This document shows, piece after piece, positions 11,864-40,217 of a stretch of DNA of 40,468 nt. Numbering within the stretch: position 1 is the stretch's first letter; each line of letters starts with the position of its first letter. The DNA comes from Ruminococcus sp. (GTDB lineage: Bacteria > Bacillota > Clostridia > Oscillospirales > Ruminococcaceae). The notes under the pieces were generated by a model. It made no database searches. It had not been told where the DNA came from and saw nothing but the letters and a program-made list of their open reading frames with translations. Both the position numbers and the translations under genes were made by a program. The stretch lies in NCBI GenBank assembly GCA_017516465.1, contig JAFXCR010000035.1, forward strand, positions 1 through 40,468, given 5' to 3'.

Positions 11864-12100
11864 ATGATATTAAAAATGAATGCGGAAATATTGGAGATAT
11901 CCGATAAAAGATTACTTGTTCGTGATTTGCATACAAATCAGGAATATGTAGTGAATTTGCGGAGAAATCGTAAACTCAGCGTTGGCGAAGAAGTTACAAT
12001 ACATTATGGTGATGCAATGACGCTTAGCCTTCCGCCTCATATCAGTGCAGTAAGAATAAAGAAAATAATGAGATCAGAGGGGGTTAAGAATGATGTTTAA
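11864..12100 (+). CDS. Small protein of unknown function (78 aa)
   Basis: The start at 11864 follows AGGGGGGATT and lies downstream of the promoter's expected start site, which excludes the earlier in-frame ATG at 11822 (inside the promoter). The protein begins MILKMNAEILEISDKRLLVRD and contains VLS-type alternating strands (QEYVVNLRRN, VGEEVTIHYGD, PPHISAVRI). This pattern suggests a small beta-barrel such as an OB-like fold; that is inference. No signal peptide. Its last codons overlap the GH18-dockerin gene by 11 nt, so the two are cotranscribed. I do not recognise a named family. Confidence 0.7.
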   Translation: MILKMNAEILEISDKRLLVRDLHTNQEYVVNLRRNRKLSVGEEVTIHYGDAMTLSLPPHISAVRIKKIMRSEGVKNDV

Positions 12101-14438
12101 AAGATTTATTTCAATGGCGTGTGCAACAGTTATGATGTCTGCTTATGCGATTCCGGCAGAAGCGACTCAAAGCTCCATTATCCTGTACGAAGGTGAGATT
12201 TTAGCTGAAGCATGGACTTGCCCTGTTACAATTCCTGTATATGACCGCAGTATTTATGCTGAAGGAAACAGAATTGCCATTCAGTGTGATGCAGAGTCAG
12301 CTCCATATTTTGCTCTTACATCAACCAGCGGAGGAAAAGAATGGGCACAGGTTGCTCCTGATTCCTCAGAAGGCAACTGGTATTATTATTCATACGAAGC
12401 AATGGCGGAGGCGTTCGGTACGGATTTTTCACTGCTTGATTATGTCAACGTAATGGCTGGAAATTCCACGATGACACTTTATACAATTGAAATGCAGCTT
12501 GAAAATCCTATTGAAATTCCCGAACCGGAATACGAAAAAGTACACCATACTTCCCGTGTAGTCGGCTATCTGCCGGACTGGGCTTATTATACTTATTCAA
12601 GAATGGATTTTAGTGCATTGACACATATCAATATTGCATTCTGTATTCCGGATACAGATGGAAATCTTAAATGTAATATTCCGTCGTATGATATGAAAAA
12701 TATTGTAAACAGAGCACATGATTATGACGTAAAGGTAATGGCGGGTCTTGGCGGAGGCGGAGGCTGTGAAAACTATCTTCCTCTTATCGATACACCAGAG
12801 GAAATGGCTGCTTTTAACGAAGAAATTATGGATTATTGCGAGACATATGATCTTGACGGAATTGATCTCGATATTGAACTTGGTTCCAGTCATAAGATAT
12901 GGACTTACTATGAAGATTGGGTAGCTTCCCTCAGAACACTTTGTGATGAGCGTGGATATGAGCTTTCCACAGCAACTGCACAATGGGTAGCAGTAAATGT
13001 GTCTCCTGAAACTTTCGGACTTTTCGATTTTGTCAATGTTATGGCTTACGATAACGATGCCGATGAATCATCACACGCCGATATGGAATTTGCCGAGTCA
13101 TCACTTGAATACTTCAATATTCAGAAGAAAATACCGAAAGAAAAACTTGTGCTTGGTGTTCCGTTCTATGGCAGAGGATATACTGAGGATGGTAAACTCG
13201 ACTGGAATTCTTACGTTCCATTTGCAAAGCTGATCGAATACGATGAGGCAAATTATGACTCTGATCTGTATGACGGGATTGCTTATAATGGTGCCTCCAC
13301 AATGCAGAAAAAATGCGAAATGGCACAAGAACACGGTGGTATTATGATCTGGGAACTTACTCAGGATGCAGCAGGAGAGTATTCACTTCTATCACTTATA
13401 AAAGAAGAAATGACAACTTCCTATGATGAACTTCTTCCCGACTGGGTTCCGAGGACATTTGCAGAAGCTCTTAATTTCAGTAATAAATACGGCAAGAACC
13501 ATGTTGCAGATGGTCTGATATGCTGTGTTCGCAAGGAGCAGAAAGACAAAGACAATTACGAAATTGATGGAAGTACAAGTACTGCGGAATACGAGCTTCT
13601 CTATCATGAGGTATTTGATCCGTTGAGTACGGAAGTGCCGGATGAGTCTGATACAGAAGCCTATGAGAAATATCTTGAGGAGCTTGACCTTCTTGGAATA
13701 TCCGTAGATGATGTCGATCTCATGCAGGCAGATTTCAGATATGAGGTTTATGTATACAAGCCGATGTCAGAAGGAACTATCAATCTTGACTGGGCAGCCG
13801 GATTCGGAATTTCAAATCCTTATGCAGTTATGAATTTTGATATTTCTGCTGACGGAACTATCACTCAGACCGATCTTATGAGTATTATTCCTGACTCTGT
13901 TACTGAACATTCAGCCTTCCGCAAAGAAAATGACGAAGTAACCATTCAGAATGGACACATTGTTTATTGTGATGTAGTAGCCAAAGGTGCCGGATATGAG
14001 CTTCAAGTAGAGCAATGCGGTTCCGGACGTGTTGGACAGGTAATGGAATATGAAGTAATTGAGGATTCCGTATTACCTCCGCCTCCCGGAACAACCGGAG
14101 AAACAGTCATGGTATATGAGCCTTGTGCTCCGGGAATAGTCAGAATGACTTTCACACAGCTTCGTCCATGGGAAAATGGTGATGTTTTATCTGAGATAGT
14201 GAAGTATTATCTTATCAGTGAGGACGGAAACATTACAGAGCTTGATGAGGATAAAATCAAGCTTGGTGACTGCAACCTTGACGGTGAATTTTCAATTGCA
14301 GATCTTGTTATGCTTCAGAAGTGGATTCTTGGTTCCGACGATATTACCTGCTGGCAGAATGCAGATTTTGATGCTGACAATATTGTAGACGTATTTGATC
14401 TCTGTCTCATGAGAAAAGCGTTAACTAAAACTACATAA
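12090..14438 (+). CDS. Secreted GH18 glycoside hydrolase with C-terminal dockerin
   Basis: A 782-residue secreted protein. A signal peptide occupies about residues 1-25. Residues 27-130 form a beta-rich domain of unknown type. The GH18 barrel begins near VVGYLPDWAYYTYSRMDF, with the catalytic signature LDGIDLDIEL (Asp256, Asp259, Asp261 and the acid Glu263), and continues to MIWELTQDAAGEYSLLSLI. A further beta-rich region of about 280 residues precedes a dockerin at 725-782, with two calcium-loop repeats (GDCNLDGEFSIADLVMLQ and NADFDADNIVDVFDLCLM). GH18 enzymes cut chitin or act as endo-N-acetylglucosaminidases on glycoproteins; the target here is not determined. The dockerin implies docking on a cellulosomal scaffoldin. 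Confidence 0.92.
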   Translation: MMFKRFISMACATVMMSAYAIPAEATQSSIILYEGEILAEAWTCPVTIPVYDRSIYAEGNRIAIQCDAESAPYFALTSTSGGKEWAQVAPDSSEGNWYYYSYEAMAEAFGTDFSLLDYVNVMAGNSTMTLYTIEMQLENPIEIPEPEYEKVHHTSRVVGYLPDWAYYTYSRMDFSALTHINIAFCIPDTDGNLKCNIPSYDMKNIVNRAHDYDVKVMAGLGGGGGCENYLPLIDTPEEMAAFNEEIMDYCETYDLDGIDLDIELGSSHKIWTYYEDWVASLRTLCDERGYELSTATAQWVAVNVSPETFGLFDFVNVMAYDNDADESSHADMEFAESSLEYFNIQKKIPKEKLVLGVPFYGRGYTEDGKLDWNSYVPFAKLIEYDEANYDSDLYDGIAYNGASTMQKKCEMAQEHGGIMIWELTQDAAGEYSLLSLIKEEMTTSYDELLPDWVPRTFAEALNFSNKYGKNHVADGLICCVRKEQKDKDNYEIDGSTSTAEYELLYHEVFDPLSTEVPDESDTEAYEKYLEELDLLGISVDDVDLMQADFRYEVYVYKPMSEGTINLDWAAGFGISNPYAVMNFDISADGTITQTDLMSIIPDSVTEHSAFRKENDEVTIQNGHIVYCDVVAKGAGYELQVEQCGSGRVGQVMEYEVIEDSVLPPPPGTTGETVMVYEPCAPGIVRMTFTQLRPWENGDVLSEIVKYYLISEDGNITELDEDKIKLGDCNLDGEFSIADLVMLQKWILGSDDITCWQNADFDADNIVDVFDLCLMRKALTKTT

Positions 14439-14520: not shown

Positions 14521-14596
14521 TGGTTGGGGCAGCGGGATTTGAACCCACGAGATGACAGAGTCAAAGTCTGTTGCCTTACCGCTTGGCTATGCCCCA
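14521..14596 (-). tRNA. tRNA-Gln (anticodon TTG)
   Basis: A complete 76-nt minus-strand cloverleaf. The acceptor stem pairs TGGGGCA with TGCCCCA, followed by A and an encoded CCA. The anticodon arm is ACAGA-CTTTGAC-TCTGT, which gives TTG. The T arm has GTTCAAATC. This tRNA is a natural substrate of MnmA, encoded at 6208-7272. Confidence 0.96.
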
Positions 14597-20295: not shown

Positions 20296-21567
20296 ATGTC
20301 TGCACCATTAGCCGATAAGATACGTCCGTTGACGCTCGATGACGTAGTTGGACAGGAACATATTCTGGCGGAAGGAAAGCCGCTTCGCAGAATAATTGAA
20401 AGCGGCACAGTACCGAATATGATATTTTATGGTCCGTCCGGAGTGGGCAAGACTACCGTTGCACGGATTATAGCAGAAAACTGCGGAATGACGCTCTATA
20501 AGCTCAACGGAACAAGTGCGTCAACTGCTGATATCAAACAGGTGGTAGGGGAGATAGGCACTTTCGGCACAGAAAACGGAATTCTTCTCTATCTTGACGA
20601 GATACAATATCTTAATAAAAAGCAGCAGCAGAGTCTCCTCGAATATATTGAAAACGGTGAGATCACGCTTATTGCTTCGACTACGGAAAACCCGTATTTT
20701 TCGATATATAATGCAGTTATAAGCCGGAGTACGGTATTTGAATTCAAGCCGGTTTCAGCGGAACAGATAATTCCGGCGGTACGACGTGCATTTAATATAA
20801 TTTCCGAGGAAAACGGAACTGTGATAGAAGCAGATGAGGGAATTTACAAGACCATTGCATATAACTGCGGCGGAGATGTACGAAAAGCCATAAATACTGC
20901 GGAACTTGCAGTTATCTGTGGCGAACCGGATTCCGGAAAAGTAAAAGTTACAGCAGAATCCATGAAAATAATTGCTCAGAGAAGCAATATGAGGTATGAT
21001 CGTGACGGAGATCAGCATTATGATATTTTGTCGGCACTTCATAAATCAATAAGAGGTTCTGATGAAAATGCAGCACTTCACTATGCGGCACGTCTGATAG
21101 CGGCAGGGGATATTATTTCGCTTTGCAGACGTCTTTTGTGCATTGCTTCTGAAGATATCGGACTTGCTTATCCAATGGCAGCGGTGATAACAAAGGCGTG
21201 TGTAGATTCTGCATTACAGCTGGGACTTCCGGAAGCAAGACTTCCGATTGCTGAGGCGATAATTCTTCTTGCAACAGCCCCGAAATCGAACAGTGCTGAA
21301 GCAGCTATTGATGCTGCACTTGCCGATTTACAGGATTGTGACGCACTTGATTTCCCTCGTCATTTGCAGAATATGCATTATGACGGAAAGGGGGCAGCGG
21401 TTGTCGGACAGAATTATCTCTATCCTCACGATTTTCCGAACCACTATGTCAGACAGCAGTATATGCCAGATGCCTTGAATGGTCATGTATATTATCAGTT
21501 TGGTGATAATAAGCAGGAGCAGTCAGCATATCAGTATCGTAAAAAGCTTCTTGATGAGACAAAATAG
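20296..21567 (+). CDS. rarA: Replication-associated recombination protein A (RarA/MgsA AAA ATPase)
   Basis: A 423-residue clamp-loader-like AAA+ ATPase that acts at stalled replication forks. Motifs: PLADKIRPLTLDDVVGQEHIL at the N-terminus, Walker A FYGPSGVGKTT (residues 44-54), Walker B LLYLDEIQYLNK (Asp101, Glu102), sensor 1 ASTTENPYF, and the C-terminal tetramerisation region with HYAARLIAAGDIISLCRRLL, SEDIGLAYPMA and YLYPHDFPNHYV. Usual length, all motifs intact. Ribosome site AAAAGGAGG. It ends the small-gene run that follows glyA. Confidence 0.96.
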   Translation: MSAPLADKIRPLTLDDVVGQEHILAEGKPLRRIIESGTVPNMIFYGPSGVGKTTVARIIAENCGMTLYKLNGTSASTADIKQVVGEIGTFGTENGILLYLDEIQYLNKKQQQSLLEYIENGEITLIASTTENPYFSIYNAVISRSTVFEFKPVSAEQIIPAVRRAFNIISEENGTVIEADEGIYKTIAYNCGGDVRKAINTAELAVICGEPDSGKVKVTAESMKIIAQRSNMRYDRDGDQHYDILSALHKSIRGSDENAALHYAARLIAAGDIISLCRRLLCIASEDIGLAYPMAAVITKACVDSALQLGLPEARLPIAEAIILLATAPKSNSAEAAIDAALADLQDCDALDFPRHLQNMHYDGKGAAVVGQNYLYPHDFPNHYVRQQYMPDALNGHVYYQFGDNKQEQSAYQYRKKLLDETK

Positions 21568-21570
21568 CAG

Positions 21571-21600
21571 AAAAAACCCCCGAGAGACCTTCGGGGGCTT
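21571..21600. terminator. Bidirectional terminator shared by rarA and the large ncRNA
   Basis: CCCCCGA (21577-21583) pairs with TCGGGGG (21591-21597). For rarA (plus strand) the tail is CTTTAATTATT, while the minus-strand tail is six T. The stronger T-run therefore faces the minus-strand RNA gene. Confidence 0.85.
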
Positions 21601-22178
21601 TAATTATTAAATTGTAGATTTAAAACGACTTTCATCGTTTTGCAGAATTACCCTTTGGACTCACCCTTTCATAGTGATCTTTGAAGAATATCTAATCATT
21701 TTCATTTGAATCATTCCTTCAAATAAAGATATCGGGTCAAAATTAAATTACTGCATCGGGACCACCTTTTACAATTATTTTCCGTACCATGTGCGGACGG
21801 AATAGGTTTCTTTCCCAAAAATTAACTTCTCATCGGACTCAACCTTTACTTTGGATTTATGTATCTAAAGACTCGTTGTCGTAATTTCAGATAATCCTGT
21901 ATCCAAACTGAGCTTAGACATGAAGCCATTTTTCATTCAGCAATACGTCAGCTTTATAACCAGATGTTATTTGTAATTTCAATTCAATGGAACAAGCATT
22001 TTGCCTATATTCCCTAATATATATCCGATTACTCAGCAAGCCCGCTGGCTTCATGCTGTTGTTTTGAAAATTCTTCCACCGGACTCACACACCTTTCCGC
22101 ATAAAATAATTTACATTGAGCATCAGCTCCGTCCAAGTAAATTCAGCTTTCGGAAGATTTTGTTTCTTCCCTTTCCTT
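21571..22178 (-). ncRNA. Large structured non-coding RNA, candidate ROOL class
   Basis: About 600 nt with no protein frame. A minus-strand promoter sits at 22185-22213 and a strong terminator at its far end. The RNA ends pair: 22131-22144 with 21645-21660 (TTGGAC/GTCCAA plus GAATT/AATTC around an internal loop). Internal helices include GGAAGA/TCTTCC (22152-22170), a 10-bp long-range helix CATGAAGCCA/TGGCTTCATG (21919-21928 with 22046-22055), TTTGGAT/ATCCAAA (21850-21856 with 21901-21907), TTCCGT/ACGGAA (21780-21785 with 21797-21802) and AAAACGA/TCGTTTT (21622-21641). A motif reading AAAGG..GAGTCC on the minus strand occurs four times. Size, closed ends, host type and lack of coding fit ROOL (rumen-originating, ornate, large) RNA. 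That class name is recalled, not searched; the presence of a large structured RNA is much surer than the class. Confidence 0.75.
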
Positions 22179-22184
22179 GATTAT

Positions 22185-22213
22185 ATATTACCATATTATT
22201 TAGTAAATGTCAA
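22185..22213 (-). promoter_or_regulatory. Promoter of the large ncRNA
   Basis: Minus strand: TTGACA at 22208-22213 and TAATAT at 22185-22190, 17-bp spacer, predicted start near 22178. Confidence 0.75.
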
Positions 22214-22328
22214 TAGATATCTATGAAAAAGTTTGAAGGATTAGTGCAAATCGGCATAATAAACAATGTATGCTTTTATGATTAGGTTATTGTGTACAAA
22301 CCGAAGTATGCTTTACTGAAAATTCCTC

Positions 22329-22357
22329 TTGATTTTTCATTAGCAACAGTGTATAAT
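22329..22357 (+). promoter_or_regulatory. Promoter of the DUF1292 gene
   Basis: TTGATT at 22329-22334 and TATAAT at 22352-22357, 17-bp spacer. Confidence 0.75.
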
Positions 22358-22398
22358 AAGAATATCAAAGGCGGAATAACCGCAGAATGGAGTAAAAT

Positions 22399-22704
22399 AT
22401 GTCTGATATGAACGAATATACACCAGATCTTATCGAACTGGTGGACAATGAAGGAAATAAAAAGAATTTTGAAATTGTAGATATTGCTGAATTTGAAGGC
22501 GAAATCTATTATGCAATGATACCTGAATTCAATGGCGAAGATATTCTTGCTGCTGACTGTGAGCTTGTTATTCTAAAGACTATTGAGGATAACGGAGAGG
22601 AAATTCTTGCATCAATCGAAGATGACGATGAATTTGACAGAGTATCAGAATTCTTTATGAAGCGTATGGATGAACTTTTTGATGAAGAGGACGATGAAGA
22701 ATAA
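22399..22704 (+). CDS. DUF1292 family protein
   Basis: A 101-residue, very acidic protein. The DUF1292 pattern is clear: LIELVDNEGNKKNFEIVDIAEFEGEIYYAMIPE, then CELVILKTIEDNGEEILASIEDDDEFDRVSEFF and an Asp/Glu-rich tail. Members are small cytosolic Firmicutes proteins, often encoded near ruvX/alaS in other clostridia; no molecular function is established. Here it stands alone between two RNA genes, with its own promoter and terminator. The ribosome site is GGAG, 9 nt before the ATG. Confidence 0.9.
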   Translation: MSDMNEYTPDLIELVDNEGNKKNFEIVDIAEFEGEIYYAMIPEFNGEDILAADCELVILKTIEDNGEEILASIEDDDEFDRVSEFFMKRMDELFDEEDDEE

Positions 22705-22751: not shown

Positions 22752-22950
22752 AAAATAAAACCGCCTTGCCGGGACTTATAGTGAATAAAACCCGCACAAA
22801 GCAGGTGGGTAAACGCCCGAGTGCCTCACGCTCCCTTCGTCCGCCGAAGCGGGAGGTCTGCAATCCACATCCGGAGCTGAATTCCCTGGTAAGAAGTGTT
22901 GGATCATACGAACTATAAAAAATCGAACAAGGCAGTAATATTTATTTGTT
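22752..22950 (-). ncRNA. ssrS: 6S RNA candidate
   Basis: A non-coding minus-strand unit of about 195 nt with its own promoter (22957-22985). Its 5' and 3' ends form a 9-bp closing helix (ACTGCCTTG at 22936-22928 with CAAGGCGGT at 22768-22760), followed by a T-rich 3' tail. The apical part has CTCCC/GGGAG (22831-22835 with 22851-22855) or, as an alternative, CCGC/GCGG closing a CGAA/TTCG loop (22841-22852). Length, a single elongated closed fold and isolated transcription fit 6S RNA, the RNA polymerase regulator. In Bacillus a 6S gene lies near tcdA and rarA, both of which are nearby here. I could not confirm the central bubble, so another RNA of similar size remains possible. Confidence 0.55.
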
Positions 22951-22985: not shown

Positions 22986-23073
22986 TAGCTTTTTTATACA
23001 AAATGTGAAAGTTAACAATTTTTTTATAATTTTCCCTTTATGTTACAGTTTTTTTATCATAAGCGTTATATTA

Positions 23074-23102
23074 TTGACAAAAATTGTGCGTTATGTTATA
23101 AT
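23074..23102 (+). promoter_or_regulatory. Promoter of the first dockerin/beta-helix gene
   Basis: TTGACA at 23074-23079 and TATAAT at 23097-23102, 17-bp spacer. The rest of 22986-23073 is AT-rich and shows nothing definite. Confidence 0.8.
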
Positions 23103-23139
23103 ATTGTTATATAAAATATATGAAACGGAGAGCTGTTTT

Positions 23140-24408
23140 ATGAAAAAAAGAATAACTGCTTTGATTACTTCTGCTATTTTCGGATCTTTATCGGTCATGA
23201 ATGTATCTGCTGTTACTTCAGAAGTAAAGGGCGATATAAATAATGACGGAGTTTTCAATGTTGCAGATATGGTAACTCTTCAGAAATGGATTTTAAACGA
23301 CGTTGATAAACTTCAGAATTGGAAAGCAGCTGATTTATGCACTGATAATATCCTTGATGCTTTTGATATGTCGATGATGAGAAAGCATCTGCTTGTTCCG
23401 AAAACAAATATTGTCCGTGTTACTACGTCCGATGAACTCATGTCTGCACTTGCTGCTGCAAAAGCTGGTGATGAAATTGTAGTTGCTCCGGGTGAATATA
23501 TCTGCACAACATCTACTAATACAAAGGGGTATCAGTATCATGGTGCTGCAGATGGAACAGAGGATTCTCCGATCATACTCAGATCAGAAGATCCTGAATC
23601 TCCGGCAATTCTTTCAGGATCTACCATTCAGAAGCAATATGCTCTTGCTATCACAGGTGACTGGTGGGTACTTGAAAATATAAAAGTTACCGGTTCTTCT
23701 ATCGGTCTTGTTCTTGATAACTCAAATAACACAAAAATTATTAATTGCGAGGTTTATGGAACAGGTCAGGAAGCAATACATATCCGTGACGGCAGCTCTA
23801 ACTGTCTTGTTGAAAACACTTATATTCACGATACAGGACTAAAAACAGCTGCGTATGGTGAAGGTATCTATATCGGAAGCTCATATAAAGCTGAGGAATA
23901 CGAACACGCCTGTGATAATAACAGAATCCGCAACTGTAAAATCGGACCGAATGTTACAGCTGAACACGTTGATGTCAAGGAGTATACAACAGGAACAATT
24001 ATTGAAAATTGTACTTTTGACGGAAAGGGAATATCTGGCGAAAATTATGCTGACAGCTTTGTTGATCTCAAGGGAAATGATTGTATTCTGAGATATTGTA
24101 CAGGTTACAGAAACGGAGAAATAAGAGTAAACCGTGCCTTTGAGATGAACAAGCTTGTTGACGGATGGGGACAGAATGCCTATATTTACGGAAATAAGGT
24201 ATACATGGATACTTCTCTTAATTCTGAAGGAAAGAAAATGGTTATACTTAATTCATGGAACTGCACCGAAACTGTATGGGATAATTACATGGCATACGAA
24301 GATGGAGTTCTCTTTTATACTGACGACGAGAAGGATAAGTGGAATTATTATAACTGCAACGGTCTCACATACGGGGATTCTTCAATTGAGAAAGAACTTC
24401 CGCAGTAA
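23140..24408 (+). CDS. Secreted protein: N-terminal dockerin plus right-handed beta-helix (lyase-like)
   Basis: 422 residues. The open frame begins 45 codons earlier, but that part overlaps the promoter; the ATG at 23140 has ribosome site ACGGAG and is followed by a signal peptide (about 1-24). A dockerin follows at once (residues 29-87: GDINNDGVFNVADMVTLQKW and a second loop ending in AFDMSMMRKHLL). Residues 95-420 resemble a pectate-lyase-like parallel beta-helix: TSDELMSALAAAKAGDEIVV, ILRSEDPESPAILSG, repeated NC.V and N.I turns, and HVDVKEYTTGTIIENCTFDG. This layout occurs in polysaccharide lyases such as PL6 and in epimerases; no family is assigned. It is a clear paralogue of the gene at 35905. 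The likely role is cellulosome-bound action on an acidic plant polysaccharide (inference). Confidence 0.85.
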   Translation: MKKRITALITSAIFGSLSVMNVSAVTSEVKGDINNDGVFNVADMVTLQKWILNDVDKLQNWKAADLCTDNILDAFDMSMMRKHLLVPKTNIVRVTTSDELMSALAAAKAGDEIVVAPGEYICTTSTNTKGYQYHGAADGTEDSPIILRSEDPESPAILSGSTIQKQYALAITGDWWVLENIKVTGSSIGLVLDNSNNTKIINCEVYGTGQEAIHIRDGSSNCLVENTYIHDTGLKTAAYGEGIYIGSSYKAEEYEHACDNNRIRNCKIGPNVTAEHVDVKEYTTGTIIENCTFDGKGISGENYADSFVDLKGNDCILRYCTGYRNGEIRVNRAFEMNKLVDGWGQNAYIYGNKVYMDTSLNSEGKKMVILNSWNCTETVWDNYMAYEDGVLFYTDDEKDKWNYYNCNGLTYGDSSIEKELPQ

Positions 24409-35904: not shown

Positions 35905-37146
35905 ATGAAAAAACAAATTATATCAGCAATGCTTGTGGTATCAGTTATTTCTTCTTCGGGAACGATTAATGTATCGGCAAGAGAAGATGTTTCTGTAAAG
36001 AAAGGCGATCTTAATTCTGATGGTTATTTCAATATTGCAGATTTAGTCATATTACAGAATTGGATATTGCAGAATACAGATACAGTTCCTGAATACTGGC
36101 AGGCTTCCGATTTCCTTAAGGATGATATTCTTGATTCTTTTGATTTGTGTCTGATGAGACGTGAGCTTCTTTCCGCATCAACGAAGAATTATGTGGATGT
36201 TTCAACGGTAGAGGAGCTTTTCATTGCAATGCGTGGTGCAAAGCCGGGCGATGTTATCCGTGTTGCAAGCGGAATATACGATTATACGATATATCAGGGA
36301 GCACAGAAAATTGATACTTCCGCTGAGGGTACAGAAGAGGCTCCCATAACGCTGACAGCTGCCGATCCGGATGATCCGCCTGTTATTACAGGAAAAGATA
36401 CAGCGAATGGTTATGTAATTCAGATTAAAGGTGATTACAGGATTCTTGAAAATCTGAAAATAACCACATCACAGAAGGGAATAGTATTTGATAATTCAAA
36501 TCATTCGATTATACGAAACTGCGAAGTATACAATACTGGTGCAGAAGCAATAGCTCTCCGTGACGGAAGCTCCTACTGTCTGGTGAAGGATTCATATATA
36601 CACGATACAGGACTGGTAACTCCCGGATATGGCGAAGGAGTATATATAGGCAGTGCTAAATCCACAACAGGCTTTGACTATAAATGCGACAATAATACAG
36701 TCGATGGCTGTATTTTTAAGAATGTTGCGGCAGAACACGTTGATGTCAAAGAGTATACAACAGGAACAGAAATCATGAATTGTACCTTTTACGGAGATGG
36801 CATGACAGGTGCAAATTATGCGGGAAGCTTTATTGATATAGCCGGCAACGATGTATATGTTCATGATAATAAAGGCTATCGTAATGGAAATAAGAATATT
36901 GTTGCAGCATTTGAACTGCACCTTCAGGTTGAGGAATGGGGATATCACTGTAAATTCACTGATAATACACTTTACATGGACCAGCCATATGGTGCGGTAG
37001 ACACAAGCCGAAGAATGTATGTGGTAGACGGCTGGTACAGCGATTTTTCAGTAAAAAACAATCTTGTTGATTACGGCGAAGGACTTGTTCCCGCTGATGG
37101 CTGGGAATACTATAATTCTGATTATGTCACCTATCTTGAGAAATAA
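35905..37146 (+). CDS. Secreted protein: N-terminal dockerin plus right-handed beta-helix, paralogue of 23140-24408
   Basis: 413 residues, ribosome site AAAGGAG. Signal peptide about 1-25; dockerin at about 33-90 (GDLNSDGYFNIADLVILQNW, then DSFDLCLMRRELL). The beta-helix follows: TVEELFIAMRGAKPGDVIRV, LTAADPDDPPVITG, YRILENLKI, IIRNCEVYNTGAEAIALRDG, AAEHVDVKEYTTGTEIMNC and YAGSFIDIAGND. Many blocks match the protein at 23140 in order, notably LRDGSSxCLVxxxYIHDTGL, YGEGxYIGS and AEHVDVKEYTTGT. The shared charged positions in the HVDVKEY block are candidates for the active or calcium site. It is 10 kb from its paralogue, so it is not a fresh tandem copy. Probable polysaccharide lyase or related enzyme; substrate unknown. 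Confidence 0.85.
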   Translation: MKKQIISAMLVVSVISSSGTINVSAREDVSVKKGDLNSDGYFNIADLVILQNWILQNTDTVPEYWQASDFLKDDILDSFDLCLMRRELLSASTKNYVDVSTVEELFIAMRGAKPGDVIRVASGIYDYTIYQGAQKIDTSAEGTEEAPITLTAADPDDPPVITGKDTANGYVIQIKGDYRILENLKITTSQKGIVFDNSNHSIIRNCEVYNTGAEAIALRDGSSYCLVKDSYIHDTGLVTPGYGEGVYIGSAKSTTGFDYKCDNNTVDGCIFKNVAAEHVDVKEYTTGTEIMNCTFYGDGMTGANYAGSFIDIAGNDVYVHDNKGYRNGNKNIVAAFELHLQVEEWGYHCKFTDNTLYMDQPYGAVDTSRRMYVVDGWYSDFSVKNNLVDYGEGLVPADGWEYYNSDYVTYLEK

Positions 37147-40141: not shown

Positions 40142-40217
40142 GCTGATGTGGCACAGTCGGTAGCGCAACGCCTTGGTAAGGCGTAGGTCGTCGGTTCAAG
40201 TCCGATCATCAGCTCCA
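40142..40217 (+). tRNA. tRNA-Thr (anticodon GGT)
   Basis: A complete 76-nt cloverleaf. The acceptor stem pairs GCTGATG with CATCAGC, followed by T and an encoded CCA. The anticodon arm is ACGCC-TTGGTAA-GGCGT, giving GGT. The T arm has GTTCAAGTC. It reads ACC/ACT codons and is a likely t6A/ct6A substrate of TcdA. Confidence 0.96.

Follow-up and report, generated by a model that had tools for sequence, protein, structure and literature searches.

The window analysed here, the whole 40,468-nt stretch of Ruminococcus sp. DNA, appears to encode on its minus strand an RNA of ~607 nt that belongs, as judged by comparison of related sequences, to a class found across the genus, with a shared structure, a repeated module, and preserved reading frames and stop codons. 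Our leading reading, held tentatively and at somewhat less than even confidence, is that the RNA represents a hitherto undescribed structured class onto which ribosomes load and from which they are released once a few codons have been read, perhaps with the RNA acting as a decoy in trans. Large structured bacterial RNAs seldom come with a function that can be tested, and this RNA offers such a lead in its guarded start-stop sites. These repeated, evolutionarily guarded start sites with near-immediate stops, set in an otherwise non-coding RNA, blur the boundary between mRNA and non-coding RNA.

A predicted transcription unit between rarA and a DUF1292 gene

The plus-strand genes rarA (20296-21567) and DUF1292 (22399-22704; Pfam PF06949) are separated by 831 bases, in line with the first-pass annotation, which gave a gap of more than 800 nt. 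Whilst its further claim that the gap holds no plausible protein frame stands as far as ordinary genes are concerned, the gap does contain very short ORFs with a conserved start, frame, and stop. On the minus strand, which carries all features of the RNA described below, a promoter scan identified a promoter at 22185-22213 with 10 of 12 consensus matches, composed of a -35 element TTGACA (22213-22208), a 17-nt spacer with TG, and a -10 element TAATAT (22190-22185), the -10 region being kept across 65 aligned sequences. The number of promoter-like sites across the region is not unusual (11, compared with 7.0 ± 2.4). An intrinsic terminator lies at 21571-21600, with a strong hairpin followed by six T residues (21597-21571); the terminator/promoter scan reported this hairpin in the plus-strand reading only, and it is possibly shared with rarA on the opposite strand.

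Equipped with a promoter and a terminator of its own, the RNA would form a free-standing transcription unit, and from the positions of these elements its predicted transcript is expected to begin near 22177 and to end at 21571 (22177-21571, ~607 nt). The minus-strand promoter, the strong terminator, and a unit of about 600 nt at 21571..22178 had all been proposed in the first-pass annotation, and all hold. A 6S RNA gene (22754-22941, minus strand; Rfam match of 64.2 bits) lies beyond the DUF1292 gene. The source draft genome comprises 1.99 Mb in 55 contigs, of which the window is contig 4, with dockerin-like repeat proteins recognised by eye at 23005-24408, 35905-37146, and 12090-14438, as expected of a cellulosome-bearing Ruminococcus.

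A conserved folded core

The minus strand folds better than its shuffled versions (z = -3.10, 20 shuffles), with the plus strand showing a weaker signal (z = -1.85, 20 shuffles). Of 94 distinct loci (for one of them, L042, the sole evidence is a 37-nt match), 13 had no second module in range and were excluded from the core alignment. Merging of near-identical rows at 93% left 66, and removal of L045, with one module found in its range, gave 65 rows, covering RNA positions 1 to ~380 (position 1 being window position 22200). A core structure of 61 pairs was written down from the paired strands and inspected pairs, with 89.5% of its cells paired in the 65 sequences, compared with 84.5% in shuffles and 34–47% in slid versions of the structure, a control in which it is favoured because it derives partly from the same sequences. 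Two-sided changes number 250 compared with 81 ± 9 in shuffles, the covariation score is 0.266 compared with 0.169, and for paired cells, two-sided changes, and covariation score alike none of 500 shuffles reaches the observed value. By comparison across the genus, which supplies the decisive evidence, the RNA thus has a conserved folded core, and the picture of a large, ornate RNA with at least five clear helices, covariation in aligned homologues, and its own promoter and terminator is borne out.

The 5' hairpin P2 (22109-22142; helices 2 and 3), with a conserved ACUUGG stretch, has 100% and 93% of its cells paired. The central domain (21919-22055; helices 4–7), with two-sided changes at 28 of 32 pairs, is closed by helix P3 (22055-22046 with 21928-21919; 92% of cells paired), inside which lie P4 (22037-22023 with 21965-21951; 85% and 90%) and hairpin P5 (22013-21989; 99%). 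The first hairpin (helix 1) is poorly supported, with 62% of cells paired. Helix P6, formed by UCUAAGCUC with GAGUCUUUAGA, and its inner hairpin P7 (CAG/CUG) occupy 21864-21918 (helices 8–10), with P7 (helix 10) lacking compensatory changes and remaining unproven. Towards the 3' end lies the hairpin AAAACGAUGAAAGUCGUUUU (21622-21641), of which GAUGAAAGUC is found in 54 of 79 RNAs, and the pairing of the 5' and 3' ends proposed in the first-pass annotation is a candidate, for which a 12-nt, 92% complement exists. A GGACU loop was considered as an intramolecular partner of GAGUCC and rejected, as it is not conserved in the 65-sequence alignment when read by eye.

ORF1 and the central domain

The first module, with the putative ribosome-binding motif GGAAAGG-UGUGU-GAGUCC-G (22080-22099), precedes ORF1 (22029-22079), which starts at GUG and reads VEEFSKQQHEASGLAE before its stop codon, traversing the 5' strand of helix P3 and ending within helix P4. 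All 87 first copies of the module open a frame of 14–21 codons, with the two other frames stopping within 13 codons in 32 and 72 of the 87. Of 93 copies, 65 are exactly 16 codons long, a set that differs from the 65 aligned rows; in-frame stops are absent from codons 2–14 of every one of these, compared with a mean of 18.2 and a lowest value of 10 in 2000 column shuffles. The ORF1 stop falls within RNA positions 166–182 in all 65 aligned rows, with 51 of these stops located in the 5' strand of P4.

The residues of ORF1 are conserved quite differently from its frame. Codons 3–8 are most variable at codon position 2 (entropies of 0.91, 1.35, and 1.13 for the three positions), yet the frame is open, so that what is preserved is the frame and not the peptide. 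That the RNA encodes functional small peptides, a 16-mer plus tripeptides, could be suspected from the resemblance of the ORF1 product to MEExxxQQREAGGLAE in many species of the genus; however, the retained residues are those encoded where the RNA forms the paired strands of P3 and P4, and in four loci (L032, L095, L096, and L112) a one-base shift alters the second half of the peptide, with the ORF ending at 17–20 codons. Together with the codon-position variability, which led us to reject the peptide gene, this leaves such a function highly unlikely.

The conserved frame and end point of ORF1, its course through the 5' strand of P3, and the strong covariation of P3 and P4 would also suit a translation-sensing switch, in which translation of ORF1 melts P3 and P4 and faltering initiation or elongation lets the core fold. 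We consider such a switch rather unlikely, as we do its proposed output, whereby the folded core would expose or hide a binding surface or the downstream modules and so report the state of translation to an unknown partner. No constant downstream gene is seen and no output is obvious, whilst the later modules lie outside the ORF1-P3/P4 region and vary in number.

Later modules and their mini-ORFs

In the relatives read, the RNA carries a repeated module, AAAGG-n-GAnUCC-R-AUG, with each copy opening a tiny ORF. In the window, module 2 (21822-21850) comprises AAAGGUUGAGUCCG, with its motif at 21850-21834, and the mini-ORF AUG AGA AGU UAA (MRS and a stop). A degenerate module recognised by eye (21748-21772), with its motif at 21772-21757, comprises AAAAGGUGGUCCCG and the mini-ORF AUG CAG UAA (MQ and a stop), and falls outside the pattern counted below. 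The last module, AAAGGGUGAGUCCAA (21655-21674), lacks a start codon. Between one and eight modules, with or without AUG, occur per RNA, and the RNAs range from 438 to 1380 nt in the 79 of 94 for which a terminator was called, as counted from alignment position 1, which precedes the expected start by ~23 nt. The correlation between length and module number is no more than moderate (0.42, 79 RNAs), with tandem repeats of 183 and 70 nt containing modules in two species.

A stricter motif pattern, under which copies lacking AUG or GUG were never counted, gave 87 first and 127 later copies, compared with 88 and 129 in an earlier count, the lost copies being one first and two later ones, one with a 26-codon ORF from UUG. 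The 127 later copies open ORFs of 2–11 codons, and 124 of them stop within 8 codons, compared with a mean of 63.9 and a highest value of 80 in 1000 composition shuffles, and with 46% of 2212 other AUG/GUG codons of the same RNAs. AUG AGA begins 92 of the later copies, 82 of which have no stop before codon 4; in 70 of these 82 the fourth codon is itself a stop, compared with a mean of 58 and a highest value of 65 in 5000 column shuffles. The significance of the shuffle tests is inflated by relatedness among the sequences. The stops themselves are TAA in 65, TGA in 33, and TAG in 29 of the 127 copies, with stop identity (UAA/UGA/UAG) switching at least 17 times and ORF2 length altering at least 9 times on a tree of the 65 rows built without the ORF2 columns.

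Predicted pairing of the module starts with an assumed anti-SD tail (searches of 1 and 11 genomes did not recover the 16S tail itself) has a median of -6.05 kcal/mol (214 starts), compared with -2.5 kcal/mol for other AUG/GUG codons (2067 starts). The AAGGAGG site of rarA is the only local sign of an ordinary anti-SD. Selection keeps a pattern of ribosome binding, start, a few residues, and stop, from which we infer that the modules are translated.

The conserved letters could alternatively be explained if AAAGG-n-GAnUCC-RAUG were bound by a protein or by 16S rRNA without being translated, with the short ORFs a by-product of those letters. GAnUCC is, in the aligned copies, more conserved than the function of a spacer requires, and the 3'-most module, here and by eye in several relatives, keeps AAAGG..GAnUCC without a start codon, which plain translation does not explain. 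Nevertheless, all three stop codons are used and remain in frame through the changes traced on the tree, and ORFs of 2, 3, 4, and 7 codons all end in frame, making an untranslated site improbable.

A further possibility is that ribosomes merely shield the RNA, with the folded core as its functional part and the mini-ORFs parking ribosomes to keep nucleases out. In PMC8708949, minigenes are described as stabilising transcripts through ribosome loading at strong SD sites and the resulting protection from nucleases, and the core is the best conserved part of our RNA. However, frames and stop codons are preserved here, rather than SD sites alone, and the eight modules of one species seem beyond the needs of a shield, an explanation we regard as unlikely.

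Distribution within Ruminococcus

With a 630-base query, DNA matches were found in 27 of 60 near genomes, all of the same genus, and in none of the 24 others; within the genus, 101 of 125 genomes match, including 65 of the 68 of good quality. The model R1, run on 21 genus genomes without a DNA match (G014 included), gave one weak match, in G018 (E = 0.006). The core pattern occurs in 36 genome stretches, nearly all titled Ruminococcus, chiefly R. flavefaciens and genomes from rumen or gut metagenomes, and the RNA is present in cultured rumen R. flavefaciens FD-1, 007c, ND2009, MA2007, and others. A metagenome-assembled contig labelled Alistipes senegalensis (L214) also carries the Ruminococcus RNA and is probably misnamed or contaminated.

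Among 93 loci with sufficient flanking sequence, the DUF1292 gene is the commonest neighbour seen, upstream in 66 and divergent in each of these, with various ORFs upstream in the 27 loci without it. Of 50 loci whose flanks suffice, 35 have 6S RNA nearby, and rarA is downstream in 47 of 90. As the neighbours vary among loci, the RNA has the appearance of a gene in its own right rather than of a leader belonging to one particular neighbour; the emphasis of the first-pass annotation on rarA is weak when set against the DUF1292 gene. The 6S gene is on the same strand as the RNA in four loci (L001, L002, L051, and L052) and on the opposite strand in the rest of the 35, indicating local inversion. 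In five genus genomes lacking the RNA, a DUF1292 match is absent from three (G006, G009, and G096) and present in G018 and G005, with no module beside DUF1292 in either; joint loss, a missing locus, or chance may lie behind this.

Two loci are unusual in copy number. In L195 (G141 contig 117), two RNA cores lie 3.8 kb apart on an 8.1-kb contig, either as a real duplication or as an assembly artefact, and a second, partial copy (L028/L049; RNA positions 434–607 only) lies at the end of G001 contig 31, the main locus being on contig 19.

Relatives beyond the genus

At E ≤ 0.01, R1 matches 7 of 295 genomes of the order, two of the genus and five outside it; three of these five lie beside DUF1292 (E = 6e-6 to 1.3e-3) and two do not, and the motif may supply much of the score. 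The motif AAGGN{1,7}GAGTCCRATGGA occurs at 13 places in 12 of the 295 genomes, with the backward control motif found in none of the 295. DUF1292 is close to nine of the 13 places, eight of which have a consensus-like promoter upstream and eight a terminator-like hairpin downstream, counts taken without a control set; the hairpin of L131 is 952 bases away and may belong to something else. At the four places without DUF1292 (L133, L134, L142, and L143), the ORFs opened have 16, 6, at least 40, and 6 codons respectively.

Across the class, the pattern matches 9 of 391 genomes and its backward version 2 of 391. Three of the nine are own-family genomes already found, and the remaining six lack DUF1292 in the locus, so that no further DUF1292-linked case emerges among the 391; their frames are of at least 60 codons in two, of 36 and 47 codons in two others, and of 8 and 15 codons in the last two. 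The short ORFs opened by the motif without DUF1292 (L133, L134, L143, L147, and L150; 16, 6, 6, 8, and 15 codons) indicate that the motif can occur in other settings, and these places may be leader ORFs, chance, or further members of the class.

A survey of DUF1292 in 30 hand-picked genomes gave matches in 27, with one best locus taken from each (L151-L177), 25 outside the genus and two inside (G018 and G005), and with a region of up to 1300 bases divergent from DUF1292 searched. Forward modules occur in 17 of the 25 outside-genus loci, in the RNA's own family and one other, and opposite-strand modules occur in none of the 27, with dinucleotide shuffles giving a mean of 0.58 and a highest value of 4 in 100; two genomes (G155 and G341) were known beforehand to carry the motif, without which the count is 15 of 23. 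Eight of the 25 outside-genus loci lack a module, as do the second DUF1292 loci examined (L178-L180). The start sites outside the genus open 30 ORFs of 2–9 or 17–23 codons (MY, MR, MT, MYR, and MI, for example, each followed by a stop), all 30 ending within 23 codons, an outcome that 18 of 5000 shuffles match; ORFs of up to 9 codons are only weakly in excess (382 of 5000 shuffles as extreme). The wider relatives apparently carry the same RNA class, with the motif, promoter, terminator, and synteny shared there.

Lambda bar minigenes tie up a specific tRNA through drop-off of peptidyl-tRNA, and by analogy the two- and three-codon ORFs behind SD sites, so many of which begin AUG AGA within the genus, could form a trap for one tRNA. 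The second codon is, however, not kept outside the genus, where the 19 ORFs of up to 9 codons have TAC in six, AAC in three, ATT in three, AAG in two, AAT in two, and GAA, AGA, and ACT in one each. As codon 2 differs between genera, a trap specific for one tRNA does not fit, and we hold it to be very improbable.

A possible ribosome-loading mechanism

Under our preferred reading, the strong promoter would produce an independent RNA that ends at its terminator and contains the conserved folded core. Arrayed along this RNA would be several initiation sites, each with an SD-like AAAGG, the highly conserved spacer GAnUCC, and an AUG. At each site a ribosome would start, add one to a few residues, and terminate, so that the RNA would repeatedly engage initiating ribosomes with no product made. 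ORF1 exceeds the other ORFs in length and always stops at the same site within the core, and its translation would have to open P3 and P4; a ribosome on ORF1 and the folded core would exclude each other. The likeliest output would be a decoy or idling site for ribosomes in trans, with more modules giving more capacity.

On this reading, engagement of ribosomes would be the function of the RNA and its effect would be exerted in trans, with evidence that is common to a trans decoy and to ribosomes merely protecting the RNA. We favour decoy or idling activity in trans first, the translation-sensing switch second, and the ribosome shield third. A more specific proposal, which we hold with little confidence, is that of a ribosome counterpart of 6S RNA, often encoded beside it, in which an abundant folded RNA, resembling a row of mRNA start sites, would capture initiating ribosomes, keep them cycling between start and stop, and so tune the supply of free ribosomes, with module number setting capacity. 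If this were true, the RNA may regulate ribosomes as 6S regulates RNA polymerase.

Comparison with known RNA classes

The first-pass annotation had proposed the RNA as a candidate member of the ROOL class, on account of its length of about 600 nt and its host type, and had called for a search with the Rfam ROOL, GOLLD, and OLE models. In the window, only three tRNAs and the 6S RNA reach Rfam gathering scores, and a search of 21450-22500 at E ≤ 10 gave 16 weak matches, none of them to ROOL, GOLLD, or OLE, the best being a His leader (E = 0.051) around the terminator. In seven related loci, matches up to E = 0.5 comprise 6S in all seven (two below the gathering score), one tRNA, and three chance-level sRNAs, again with none to ROOL. 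The assignment to ROOL is refuted by the absence of an Rfam match up to E = 10, and GOLLD and OLE are likewise rejected, with no covariance-model match at the gathering score or at E ≤ 10.

The RNA had also been described as chromosomal and outside any visible prophage, and this proved correct: no plasmid matches it, the core pattern has 0 matches in IMG/VR, and five phage records match over only 29–41 nt of the promoter and 5' end. Three of these five were inspected (L217-L219; a Faecalibacterium phage, an Agathobaculum phage, and one further phage), with the two annotated records having an ordinary small gene directly downstream and the third lacking annotation, which suggests that the 5' end of the RNA resembles a strong local promoter type. 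A phage or plasmid origin was rejected on these grounds, the phage similarity being promoter-like DNA. According to PMC12286853, ROOL and GOLLD are encoded by phages and prophages, often in the vicinity of tRNA islands, and ROOL forms a homo-octameric cage. This RNA resembles ROOL, GOLLD, and OLE in its length class and elaborate conserved fold, with the function of ROOL and GOLLD likewise unknown; unlike ROOL and GOLLD, it is chromosomal, spans a threefold range of lengths, and carries ribosome-start modules, and the tRNAs nearest to it in the window are at 14521-14596 and 40142-40217. We give almost no credence to a ROOL member forming a multimeric cage, despite its rumen host and ornate fold.

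tmRNA (RF00023) carries an embedded ORF encoding a tag, and is similar in that it, too, is structured and contains an ORF as long as a tag. ORF1, in contrast, has an SD and a start codon; scans of the window gave no RF00023 match and reported no tRNA-like domain at this RNA, and the genome's own tmRNA lies on another contig (C35, 162 bits). 6S RNA (RF00013) engages RNA polymerase, and is both a neighbour at the locus and, under the decoy reading, a similar case of a folded RNA engaging a core machine; however, our RNA does not match the 6S model, and its target would be ribosomes rather than polymerase.

No description of this RNA was found in searches of mainly open-access literature, including PMC11109978, PMC7580957, and PMC2864571. 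It also resembles the minigenes of two to six codons, such as lambda bar and the axe-txe mg2 minigene of PMC8708949, with which it shares an SD-like site (by pairing with the assumed anti-SD), an AUG, one to a few sense codons, and a stop. Minigenes may cause peptidyl-tRNA drop-off, and with a strong SD the ribosome can reinitiate at once, as stated in PMC8708949. The minigenes treated there lie in mRNA leaders or operons, whereas here several, with the fixed spacer GAnUCC, are set in a conserved, free-standing structured RNA.
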